26,269 bases of DNA from a virus: positions 1 through 26,269 of IMG/VR virus record IMGVR_UViG_3300032116_001152. One strand, written 5' to 3'. Numbering within the stretch: position 1 is the first letter of the stretch; every line of letters starts with the position of its first letter. The notes below the pieces were generated by a model. It searched no databases, was not told the origin of the DNA, and saw only the letters and a list, made by a program, of their open reading frames with translations. A program made the position numbers and the translations under genes. Of the stretch, positions 13,221-21,109 are shown piece by piece.

Positions 13221-13248
13221 ATTGTATCGACAGATACCTATCGCGCAA
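13221..13248 (-). promoter_or_regulatory. Candidate promoter for the DUF551-like gene
   Basis: On the minus strand TTGCGC (complement 13243-13248), 16 bases and TACAAT (complement 13221-13226) resemble a sigma70 promoter. The -35 is only a partial match. It overlaps the C-terminal codons of the upstream gene and lies about 30 bases before the ATG. Confidence 0.35.
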
Positions 13249-14158
13249 CTGACTCCGGTCGCGATCCATCGATTGCTGCATCGGCCGCCAGCGTGGCCGG
13301 TATGAGCCAGCCGAACTTGCGGATGATGCGGATGGCGTCTTCCGTTCCTGGGAACATCACAAAATTGCGAGTCCCTGTGGCTGGCGTGCCGCGCGAGCCA
13401 GAGTCCAGGTAGCGAACGCCTGGAACGCCAGCTGCGCGCAACTTGTCGGCTGCGCCACGCGGCCCGTCCATTGACGCTAGCGTGTGCCACAACGCTTTCC
13501 CAGACGGAATTCCGCCGCCCTGCAAGTCATGGCTGTGCCATCTTGCCGCCGTTTCCGGATCGCCAAATCCACCAAGCTTGAAGAACTTATGAGCCTCCGG
13601 CCTTGATGCGCGCGATCTTGCCTCCTCCAGCGCGGCACGCACGGCAGGCGACTGCCCGGTCGCCAATGCGTCCCAGTCCAGCATTGCGTTTTCTGGCACA
13701 TCAATCGCCAGCTCATAGCCGGTGCCGAGATTCTTGCGAGCATCCACCAGCTCGTCGGTGGCATCGAATCCGGCCAGCCCGTCCCTTCGCAGCGACTGGC
13801 TAATCGCCTGCGACGGGTAGTCGAACCCAAGCCAGTCGTTTTCGTCCATGGCGCGAAGGAATCGCTGCTGGCGATGGTCGAATGACGGCAATGCCGCAAT
13901 CACATCTTCAGGGGCGGCTTCCTGATCAAGGCTAGATAAGAAATCGTTTTTGAGCCTTCCGTACGACAGGCTGCGCCGGTAGTCGTCCGCCACCGCCTGG
14001 TTTTGCGCAGAGTAGTGACCGTGCGCGTATGTTTCGGCGCCTTGGCCAGTTCCCAAGAACTTGGAGTCGAACTTGTCGAAATGCTCTGGCTGCGGGCTAC
14101 CGTGATAGGCGCGGATGACCTGCCGCACAGAATCGCCAAGCTGGTCTAGCTTGCCCAT
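13238..14158 (-). CDS. ART-PolyVal-type ADP-ribosyltransferase-like protein (306 aa)
   Basis: The start is the ATG that shares a base with the upstream TGA, preceded by GGAGG at 6 nt. The N-terminal pattern IRAYHGSP, then FDKFDSKFLGTGQGAETYAHGHYSAQN (residues ~27-53 in parts), is the hallmark of the ADP-ribosyltransferase domain found in phage polyvalent proteins: Arg/His-Gly at the NAD pocket and a Tyr-containing beta-strand. The later pattern GVPGVRYLDSGSRG and NFVMFPG...IRIIRKFG is the usual domain end. The C-terminus adds a short hydrophobic stretch. It would transfer ADP-ribose to a host target, probably after injection with DNA; target and activity are not shown. Confidence 0.78.
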   Translation of the reverse strand: MGKLDQLGDSVRQVIRAYHGSPQPEHFDKFDSKFLGTGQGAETYAHGHYSAQNQAVADDYRRSLSYGRLKNDFLSSLDQEAAPEDVIAALPSFDHRQQRFLRAMDENDWLGFDYPSQAISQSLRRDGLAGFDATDELVDARKNLGTGYELAIDVPENAMLDWDALATGQSPAVRAALEEARSRASRPEAHKFFKLGGFGDPETAARWHSHDLQGGGIPSGKALWHTLASMDGPRGAADKLRAAGVPGVRYLDSGSRGTPATGTRNFVMFPGTEDAIRIIRKFGWLIPATLAADAAIDGSRPESVAR

Positions 14159-14988
14159 CAGTATCCCTCCGTCAGTCCTTCCAGCGCCCGCATGGCCGGC
14201 GGGACAGTCCAGCCCATGGTGCCGAAGCCGATCTCGGGGATCAGCTCCCTGCGAGCGGCTCCGTGCAGCCCCTTGCGAGCGAGATTCAGCGCCTTGACGC
14301 CGCCAAACCACGGGTCCAGCGTCATGTCCATCACCGTGCCGAGTGGCTTTGAGATGTACCAAGGCATCTTGGCAGCCTCCAGATACCGGTCGCCCTCCAT
14401 GGGCGTGGCCTTCTTGGAGTACTCGGACGCGATCCGGTAGTCGTCGTAGCGAGGATCGACCACCTGCCACGGGATGCTGGCCTGGGCGTCACGCATGTCT
14501 TGGAGGTCACGCCAGCGGGAGTTGTTCTTGCCGACCAATTCAGCCGGCACAAGCGTGTTGATCGACTTTGCGTAGTTGTCGTATGCCCCTGGATAGGCGA
14601 CGGCCTTGGCTCCCGTGGCGCGGTCAATCTCATTGGCCGCCATCTGGCCAGTGGCCATCACCGCAGACGGCAGGGCCTGCATCCAGCTCATGGTGTTGAG
14701 CATCGGGTGATCTGATCCGTACGGCTCATATGGCGACTTCAACGACTGCATCTGGTCGCTGGTCGATGCCCGCAGAAGGCCCGGATTGGATCGGTAGTAC
14801 TCGGGATCACGCTTCTGGATCTCCTCCAAGAAGTGCGCCCGGCGGAGATCGTCGTTGTAGCGATCCTCAGACTTGGTCCGATAGTTCATCACCGATGGGT
14901 GATTCGCCGCCCAAGACCAGAAGCCGGGGAGTTCCTGGCGAGGGAGGGCTTCGGTCTCGGAAATCAGCTTGCGGATGGCTTCGGACAT
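14158..14988 (-). CDS. Putative virion/injected protein before ART gene (276 aa)
   Basis: An alternative GTG start lies 12 bases further upstream, but the ATG sharing a base with the previous TGA fits the local junction style, with GGAA about 8 nt upstream. The protein is mostly helical and polar, with no signal peptide. A hydrophobic, Met/Ala/Gly-rich stretch near residues 100-125 (MLNTMSWMQALPSAVMATG) may touch membrane. PWYISKPLGTVMDMTLDPWFGG near 220-240 resembles the linker segments in long internal virion proteins. Its tail ends close to the ART gene, so the pair may be two parts of a polyvalent protein. The function is otherwise unknown. Confidence 0.65.
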   Translation of the reverse strand: MSEAIRKLISETEALPRQELPGFWSWAANHPSVMNYRTKSEDRYNDDLRRAHFLEEIQKRDPEYYRSNPGLLRASTSDQMQSLKSPYEPYGSDHPMLNTMSWMQALPSAVMATGQMAANEIDRATGAKAVAYPGAYDNYAKSINTLVPAELVGKNNSRWRDLQDMRDAQASIPWQVVDPRYDDYRIASEYSKKATPMEGDRYLEAAKMPWYISKPLGTVMDMTLDPWFGGVKALNLARKGLHGAARRELIPEIGFGTMGWTVPPAMRALEGLTEGY

Positions 14989-19467: not shown

Positions 19468-19501
19468 GGAAAACCCCCCGTAGGAGTTAGCCTACGGGGG
19501 G
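19468..19501 (-). terminator. Rho-independent terminator of the 253-aa gene
   Basis: CCCCCCGTAGG and CCTACGGGGGG form a perfect 11-bp stem with a 6-base loop. On the minus strand it is followed by TTTTCC. It lies 18 bases after the stop of the 253-aa gene and separates it from the late block. Confidence 0.88.
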
Positions 19502-19518: not shown

Positions 19519-20280
19519 TCATTCCCCGCACAATACCGCCCGGGCGTCGGCCACGGCCACGGGTTCCATCCGCTTGTATCCCCGCTGCCGCCTTGCTTGC
19601 TTCCGGCCACGGTTGACCACGGTAGGGGCTACAAGGCCCGCGGTCGCCGCCTCTACCGCCATGGCGATCCGTGCCGGGTTGTCGCACCCGCCCCGGCGGG
19701 GCGAAAGTAGATCGTCTGGCATTGCCTCGCGCATCTTGCCCCGCCTTGCTTCCTTCCGTTCTAGTGCCGATTCACCGATCCACGCCGTTTTCCTGTATAG
19801 GGCGCACGCTTGCCACGTAGCCCCGGCAAGATTGCCCGCTGTCACGTTGGAGCGGGTGTAGTCTCGCGTCCAAATGGCATGGATGATTCGCGACACGGTA
19901 TCGTCCTGCCCTTCCTGCGAGAGGGGGTATCGGGCGGTTGGATGCGCCCATCGGGCCACGTACCGTCGCACCACCACAAGCAACGCGGCGGCCTGATCGG
20001 CCGTGATCGTCGCCGGATCGAACTGGCCGGAACCCTTGCCGGTCTCCCGCCCCGCCCATCGGTTGTCGCGACGGTGGCCCAACAGCCTCGCCATTCGTTC
20101 GCGGGTAATGGCCTTTCGGCGTTCCCCCCGCACCGTATCGGGCAGGGGGGAGTTGGCGACGGGTTCCCCGGCCCCGGCTGTCTGCAGGAGCATCGATTGA
20201 ACCGCCGGATCGGACGATTGACCGGCAACCCAATCAAGGCGGGAAACCGCATCAGTGATAACGTCGTTCCAATTGAACAT
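19519..20280 (-). CDS. Orphan protein, possible regulator (253 aa)
   Basis: The gene has GGAGGG about 8 nt before the ATG and its own terminator, so it forms a separate transcription unit between the palindrome-rich spacer and the divergent spacer. The protein is rich in Arg and Ala, with helical parts (ITADQAAALLVVVRRYVARW; GQDDTVSRIIHAIWTRDYTRSN; ARIAMAVEAATAGL). Its C-terminus is basic (NRGRKQARRQRGYKRME). There are no clear catalytic motifs. It could be a DNA-binding transcription regulator or a sigma-like factor, but no such family is recognised. Position near iterated motifs and palindromes supports a control role by inference only. Confidence 0.65.
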   Translation of the reverse strand: MFNWNDVITDAVSRLDWVAGQSSDPAVQSMLLQTAGAGEPVANSPLPDTVRGERRKAITRERMARLLGHRRDNRWAGRETGKGSGQFDPATITADQAAALLVVVRRYVARWAHPTARYPLSQEGQDDTVSRIIHAIWTRDYTRSNVTAGNLAGATWQACALYRKTAWIGESALERKEARRGKMREAMPDDLLSPRRGGCDNPARIAMAVEAATAGLVAPTVVNRGRKQARRQRGYKRMEPVAVADARAVLCGE

Positions 20281-20301: not shown

Positions 20302-20326
20302 ACTAGACATGACGGCGTTACAAATC
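20302..20326 (-). promoter_or_regulatory. Bipartite motif copy R1 (minus)
   Basis: GATTTGTAAC, 8 bases, GTCTAGT, read on the minus strand, ending 21 bases before the ATG of the 253-aa gene. Its orientation matches that gene. It could be a promoter or activator site. Confidence 0.7.
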
Positions 20327-20385
20327 CGTCGCACACCCCAACTATATATCGTCCGTTTCAAAAGTCCACAAGAGGGTATTTTGAA

Positions 20386-20410
20386 GATTTGTAACCGGCC
20401 CATGTCTAGT
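20386..20410 (+). promoter_or_regulatory. Bipartite motif copy R2 (plus)
   Basis: GATTTGTAAC-CGGCCCAT-GTCTAGT, followed by AT, on the plus strand. Its orientation matches the plus-strand gene at 20627. The first element is preceded by an A/T-rich stretch. Confidence 0.7.
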
Positions 20411-20423
20411 ATCATCGTCCCCA

Positions 20424-20459
20424 ACGGGACAACGCGGGACGGTTTCAATACTGTCCCGT
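20424..20459. promoter_or_regulatory. Inverted repeat between R2 and R3
   Basis: ACGGGACA and TGTCCCGT form a perfect 8-bp inverted repeat separated by 20 bases; a nested CGGGAC inside gives an alternative pairing. There is no T-run. It may bind a regulator or fold in a leader RNA. Confidence 0.4.
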
Positions 20460-20476
20460 GCGGTTAGCGTTCGTCG

Positions 20477-20501
20477 GATTTGTAACCGCCCAACGTCTAG
20501 T
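20477..20501 (+). promoter_or_regulatory. Bipartite motif copy R3 (plus)
   Basis: GATTTGTAAC-CGCCCAAC-GTCTAGT, followed by AC. It starts 91 bp after R2 and is ungapped relative to the other copies. Confidence 0.7.
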
Positions 20502-20530
20502 ACTTGTGCGGCCAACGTCCGACCGTCCGG

Positions 20531-20555
20531 GATTTGTAACCGGCGAGCGTCTAGT
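20531..20555 (+). promoter_or_regulatory. Bipartite motif copy R4 (plus)
   Basis: GATTTGTAAC-CGGCGAGC-GTCTAGT, followed by AT. It starts 54 bp after R3 and ends 71 bases before the ATG at 20627, the closest plus-oriented copy to a gene. Confidence 0.7.
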
Positions 20556-20626
20556 ATGAATCGCCGCGTGCGACCGGGAAGTGATACGTATTACTCTCTG
20601 CGCATGCGGGCAGCTAAGGAGGTTCC

Positions 20627-21109
20627 ATGTACGTTCCGGAACATCTGGAACGCTGGAAACTCCCCAGGTATTACTTCGGGCAGGAATGGCCGGAGTATTA
20701 CTCTGCGGGAGTCGGGCGTTCCCGTGATTCGGGCTGCTTGGAGGAATCCAACTTCCGTTCCATGCTCAAGCGGCTGGGCGGCGAATCGGACACCGTGCAG
20801 GTCGTCCGTGAGTCGCATTGGGCCGTGGGCTGGGTGGAGTGGATTGCCATCCATGAGTCCGACGAGAAGTCTCTGCGGACAGCTGACGGGCTCAAGGCCA
20901 AGCTGGACGGTTATCCGATCTTGGACGAATTCGACTGCTCCGAGCTGGAGTGGGAGGAAGGCTCCAGGATCTGGTCGGAAGTCTACGACTGGCGGGACCG
21001 CGTCCGCGAACTGCGGAGGCACCATGAGTGCCAGTCATTCGGTGAGCTGCTGAGTGCGGCTCGCGGGAGTTACAGCTCCGCCTCGGGCGTGCAGCTGGAG
21101 GTTTTGTAA
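20627..21109 (+). CDS. Hypothetical phage protein, first of plus-strand genes (160 aa)
   Basis: The ATG is preceded by AAGGAGG, a nearly perfect ribosome site. The protein is acidic and aromatic-rich, with WAVGWVEWIAIHESD near residues 64-78 and a segment LDGYPILDEFDCSELEWEE near 93-111 that recurs in small phage proteins of unknown function. There is no membrane segment or catalytic motif. It is the first gene downstream of the iterated motifs and is followed by the 290-bp structured region, so it may be expressed early and strongly. Confidence 0.78.
   Translation: MYVPEHLERWKLPRYYFGQEWPEYYSAGVGRSRDSGCLEESNFRSMLKRLGGESDTVQVVRESHWAVGWVEWIAIHESDEKSLRTADGLKAKLDGYPILDEFDCSELEWEEGSRIWSEVYDWRDRVRELRRHHECQSFGELLSAARGSYSSASGVQLEVL

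Follow-up and report, generated by a model that had tools for sequence, protein, structure and literature searches.

A repeated, lineage-specific motif in a divergent phage spacer as the candidate target of the adjoining 253-aa protein

Genes and motif copies at the divergent spacer

The window, by which we mean the whole 26,269-base stretch of the IMG/VR virus record that was analysed, encodes a terminase, a P22-like portal protein and the major head protein on its minus strand, and small genes on its plus strand. Its terminase has a relative (81%) on a contig from a Pirellulaceae MAG, which makes a planctomycete the probable host of the phage; full-text literature searches on planctomycete phages returned nothing beyond one taxonomy paper. 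The following features were identified in and around the divergent spacer:

19470-19501, minus strand: strong intrinsic terminator (11-bp stem, 6-nt loop, TTTT) immediately following the 253-aa gene
19519-20280, minus strand: gene for a 253-aa protein, the proposed regulator, whose family was defined by HMM
20302-20326, minus strand: motif copy before the 253-aa gene; exact match, with counterparts in G025, G029, G030 and L100
20341-20371, minus strand: sigma70-like left promoter, TTGTGG-N17-TATATA (20371-20343) or TGGACT-N16-TATAGT (20368-20341), as read from the sequence and a scan
20386-20410, plus strand: rightward module 1, with box GATTTGTAAC, N8, GTC and the -10-like TAGTAT (20407-20412)
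20477-20501, plus strand: rightward module 2, with the -10-like TAGTAC (20498-20503)
20531-20555, plus strand: rightward module 3, the closest to the right-hand gene, with the -10-like TAGTAT (20552-20557)
20575-20613, plus strand: conserved leader of the rightward transcript, a hairpin and GCATGCGGGCAG ahead of the ribosome site
20627-21109, plus strand: first right-hand gene, 160 aa, widespread in phages

The three rightward modules were defined by exact matches in the window together with the analysis of tandem modules in relatives, and their -10 elements were assigned by resemblance. The pattern GATTTGTAAC-N8-GTCTAGT occurs in the window in four perfect copies, one on the minus strand and three on the plus strand, against 0.01 matches expected from dinucleotide shuffles, none of which reached four. 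This exact-match scan confirmed the initial annotation, which had described four gapless copies with 17 identical fixed bases and no others in the window; none was found even with three mismatches allowed. The distance of 21 bases from the end of the minus-strand copy to the start codon of the 253-aa ORF (ATG, 20280) was likewise confirmed. The annotation had also called the eight-base middle variable; the copies are as it described them, but across relatives the N8 is not wholly free. In all of IMG/VR, the exact pattern has one other match, which lies within a T4-like coding gene (L005) and was taken as chance. Given this single chance match and the confinement of lineage-specific boxes to the spacer (see below), the motif cannot be read as a widespread promoter. 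A palindromic operator was rejected because the window copies are self-complementary at only 4-6 of their 25 positions.

In 16 of the 20 members of the 253-aa family, the window included, such a hairpin comes right after the regulator gene, and this terminator of its own makes the regulator a separate transcription unit. Most records have a canonical promoter ahead of the left gene, such as TTGACA-N17-TATTAA (G014) or TTGACA-N17-TAGAAA (G029). Across relatives, left promoters score 3.2 bits over shuffles and right modules only 0.2-0.3 bits, both with the E. coli sigma70 matrix, applied here to phages whose hosts are probably planctomycetes. With the same E. coli matrix, no -35 signal above chance was detected in the rightward modules of relatives. 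The earlier remark that the spacing does not fit canonical sigma70 or ECF promoters is supported.

Conservation of the architecture in related phages

Relatives were gathered by terminase, and long records were examined whole. The exact motif, for which a scan of relatives had been proposed, is not conserved in them as a sequence and is essentially private to the window phage, but the architecture of the divergent spacer is present in about 23 records. The closest relative of the 253-aa protein (52% identity) is encoded in G025, which carries drifted copies, TTGT(A/C)AC-N8-GACTAGT, in the same places and with the same spacing. G029 and G030, whose 253-aa homologues are ~30% identical to that of the window, each have four copies of TTGT-N14/15-TAGT arranged in the same way, among them one ahead of the 253-aa homologue and an extra one standing singly before a later right-hand gene. 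The boxes of these two records contain a partial dyad, GGAATTGTTCC, which raised the possibility of a DNA-hairpin promoter as in phage N4; this candidate was dropped because the dyad is missing from the window copies. More distant relatives were negative for TTGT-N14-TAGT, and lineage-specific boxes were therefore sought instead. Contig L226 measures 117,778 bases, roughly double the 59 kb of G025, to which it is nearly identical, and may be a concatemer or an assembly duplication.

In the ~23 related records, the right side of the shared divergent spacer holds two or more modules in tandem, each of which combines a lineage-specific box with a -10-like TA element downstream of it; there are two modules per spacer, and three in the window. 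In a self-alignment test, tandem modules were found in 24 of 24 records, each above every shuffle of its own sequence, although these include the near-duplicates G006/G008 and G012/G017, so that the independent lineages are fewer than 24. The distance from box to -10 is nearly fixed within a genome and differs between lineages. Module columns are more conserved than the remaining spacer in the pairs G034/G014 (0.77 versus 0.68) and G008/G012 (0.79 versus 0.65); for G021/G035 there is no difference because the entire spacer is similar. Under the pattern scanned in 17 genomes (23-63 kb), the lineage box is restricted to the divergent spacer, apart from the extra copy in G029/G030. An HMM of the 253-aa protein identified a family member adjoining the spacer in 20 fetched genome records, and the most distant members (G021, G012 and G008 types) have marginal HMM scores but occupy the same position.

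On the right side, counterparts of the leader were found in ~22 relatives, with a hairpin stem of variable sequence, a CGT loop that is mostly kept, and a near-invariant GCATGCGGGCAG just upstream of the ribosome site, irrespective of the box type. An Rfam search of the leader gave no match. A GCGATCAG-type sequence lies upstream of the second rightward module in G034, G014, G004, G024 and G005, despite their different boxes. Relatives of the 160-aa right-hand gene were found in 63 viral loci and seem to extend beyond this phage group. Conservation of the motif along with this gene was rejected, as those 63 relatives lack the motif.

Co-inheritance of the box with the 253-aa family

Computed over 23 records, box similarity follows similarity of the left 253-aa family (Mantel r=0.74, p=0.0002) and much less that of the right gene (r=0.22), TerL (0.17) or the phage sigma factor (0.30). 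When 43 gene clusters were compared blind, the 253-aa family came first (r=0.82, median 0.21); next was a cluster of minus-strand genes to which the window ORF at 13238-14470 belongs (r=0.76, 10 records). Natural swaps show the same pattern. G034 and G035 are nearly identical in TerL (1.00), sigma (0.99) and right gene (0.99), whereas their regulators have a similarity of 0.04 and their boxes are at background; G021 and G024 repeat this, with unrelated boxes and different regulators. Conversely, G034 and G014 (TerL 0.78, regulator 0.61) have the same box. The regulator and its cognate sites thus appear to be exchanged together, as the Mantel correlation and the swaps both indicate. An exception is L224 compared with G029 or G030, where a regulator similarity of 0.57-0.61 goes with box similarity at background. 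Physical closeness could account for part of the co-inheritance via linkage, yet the last rightward module is nearer to the right gene than to the 253-aa gene and the box still tracks the 253-aa family. Hence the product of this gene, already put forward as a possible binder, is the best candidate for the reader of the motif, and binding by it is the most likely, if predicted, arrangement.

No match to the 253-aa protein was found in Pfam, PHROG or NCBIfam, no DNA-binding domain was recognised in it, and a sequence search against solved structures gave nothing meaningful. AlphaFold models are mostly helical (mean pLDDT 71). All Foldseek matches of these models were non-significant (E>0.3), but sigma factors recur among them (sigma32, sigmaS, ECF sigmas, gp55-like), and a D-x-x-Q-like pattern in helix 2 of some members resembles sigma region 2 in an unscored reading. 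The profile of the family showed no similarity to the phage sigma, and Pfam Sigma70_r2 had no match in the window record even at E 10. The weak fold resemblance to sigma factors is best treated as no more than a lead. A bolder reading, which we hold to be rather doubtful, is that the family constitutes an unrecognised sigma-like or sigma-partner factor with a fast-diversifying site, in which case related phages would carry private early promoter-regulator pairs that are exchanged as cassettes. T4 gp55 and ECF sigma factors would then be the nearest parallels, several sigma factors being among the weak matches, but every E-value exceeds 0.3, Sigma70_r2 has no sequence match and the motif spacing is unlike that of ECF promoters.

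The motif had been proposed to represent a promoter class for a phage-coded RNA polymerase or sigma-like factor. The confinement of the boxes to one spacer in genomes of 23-63 kb lends this no support. A search for single-subunit RNA polymerase (PF00940) in nine long relatives gave no match, though the control genomes likewise gave none. A sigma-70-like factor is encoded in the family: 16 of 26 records, for the most part the longer ones, have a Sigma70_r2 protein that scored above the cut-off (G029, 39813-40379, minus strand; G025, 50096-50749, plus strand; and counterparts); its gene is probably missing from the window because that stretch is so short. The two-block form of the motif, with a TA-rich downstream block, would suit a promoter for such a factor, but this sigma is 99-100% similar within the pairs G021/G024 and G034/G035, whose boxes are unrelated, its correlation with the box is just 0.30, and no copies stand upstream of other operons. 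We consider a promoter specific to the family-encoded sigma very improbable, and the earlier suggestion to this effect is not supported, as near-identical sigma factors accompany completely different boxes.

In the window, G025 and G029 alike, the cumulative GC skew has its minimum at the divergent spacer; this minimum could be the sign of an origin or simply reflect divergent transcription. If it marks an origin, the copies might be replication iterons and the 253-aa protein their initiator, a reading that also draws on the confinement of direct repeats to one spacer adjoining the gene that tracks them. However, divergent transcription by itself can produce such a skew minimum, and the copies are all oriented with the genes, each ending in a -10-like element, with the conserved leader and ribosome site downstream; the extra copy in G029/G030 moreover stands singly before another gene. 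Iterons are accordingly an improbable explanation.

Activation or repression by the proposed regulator

With moderate confidence, we propose from the comparative evidence that the motif copies are binding sites of the divergent 253-aa protein, that protein and sites form an exchangeable cassette, and that binding likely activates the right promoters. The rightward modules lack a -35 element above chance and hold the box at a near-fixed distance from the -10-like element, which makes activation of the kind seen at T4 middle promoters the best reading. In those promoters, a MotA box 12 +/- 1 bp from the -10 replaces the -35 element (PMC2988021). Similarly, the window box takes the -35 place, with TTGTAA 12 bp upstream of TAGTAT (TTGTAA-N12-TAGTAT). 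In contrast to MotA boxes, which are spread genome-wide over ~60 promoters, the boxes described here occupy one control spacer and vary between lineages, and the 253-aa family has no MotA homology, as judged from the lack of Pfam, PHROG and NCBIfam matches. Promoters activated by lambda cII carry TTGC-N6-TTGC at -35. They offer a further parallel, namely a temperate-phage activator site in place of the -35 element, but the site structure differs and the cII gene is not known to lie beside hypervariable tandem sites.

The main alternative is that the 253-aa protein is an immunity-type repressor and the copies its operators, which would cover the rightward promoters and sit just downstream of the start of its own promoter. 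Several relatives encode a tyrosine integrase, which suggests a temperate life and makes repression of the right side more plausible. As in the lambda immunity region with CI and Cro, a regulator and several operators lie in a divergent spacer and are exchanged as a unit between otherwise similar phages. The left copy (20302-20326) comes shortly after the predicted start site of the canonical left promoter and is positioned as a block: with its own -10 at TAGTTA, a transcript would start at the ribosome site, which suits a blocking site better than a promoter. However, right modules without a -35 above chance leave little promoter to repress, and a nearly constant distance between copy and -10 within a genome is not needed by a repressor. 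The sites also depart from lambda operators in that they are single, asymmetric direct repeats that have a fixed -10 but lack a -35, the right modules contain no complete canonical promoter above chance by the E. coli matrix, and the 253-aa protein matches no repressor or HTH family. We regard repression as possible though not probable, and activation as the most likely mode.

Under the favoured activator reading, each right-hand site would take up the -35 position, ~12 bp upstream of the -10-like TAGTA, and the bound 253-aa protein, much like T4 MotA or lambda cII, would recruit host RNA polymerase, or polymerase carrying the phage sigma, to the tandem promoters, which have no -35 of their own. 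The regulator gene itself would be expressed from a canonical sigma70-type promoter and usually end at its own terminator; in the window clade, protein bound to the left copy, downstream of the promoter start, could block that promoter and so exert feedback. Among the earlier proposals, an activator site that sets the divergent programme is the one we favour, with the 253-aa product as its probable reader; a site does precede both arms.

The cassette is most likely an early-gene control switch of this virus family, in which each lineage would have its own protein-site pair. These observations suggest a family of phage transcription regulators not described before, whose sites are already identified in about 20 lineages and whose phages have Planctomycetota as their probable hosts. 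The natural swaps provide many protein-site pairs from which a recognition code could be solved, and a role in governing lysogeny would make the system the basis of immunity groups among these phages.
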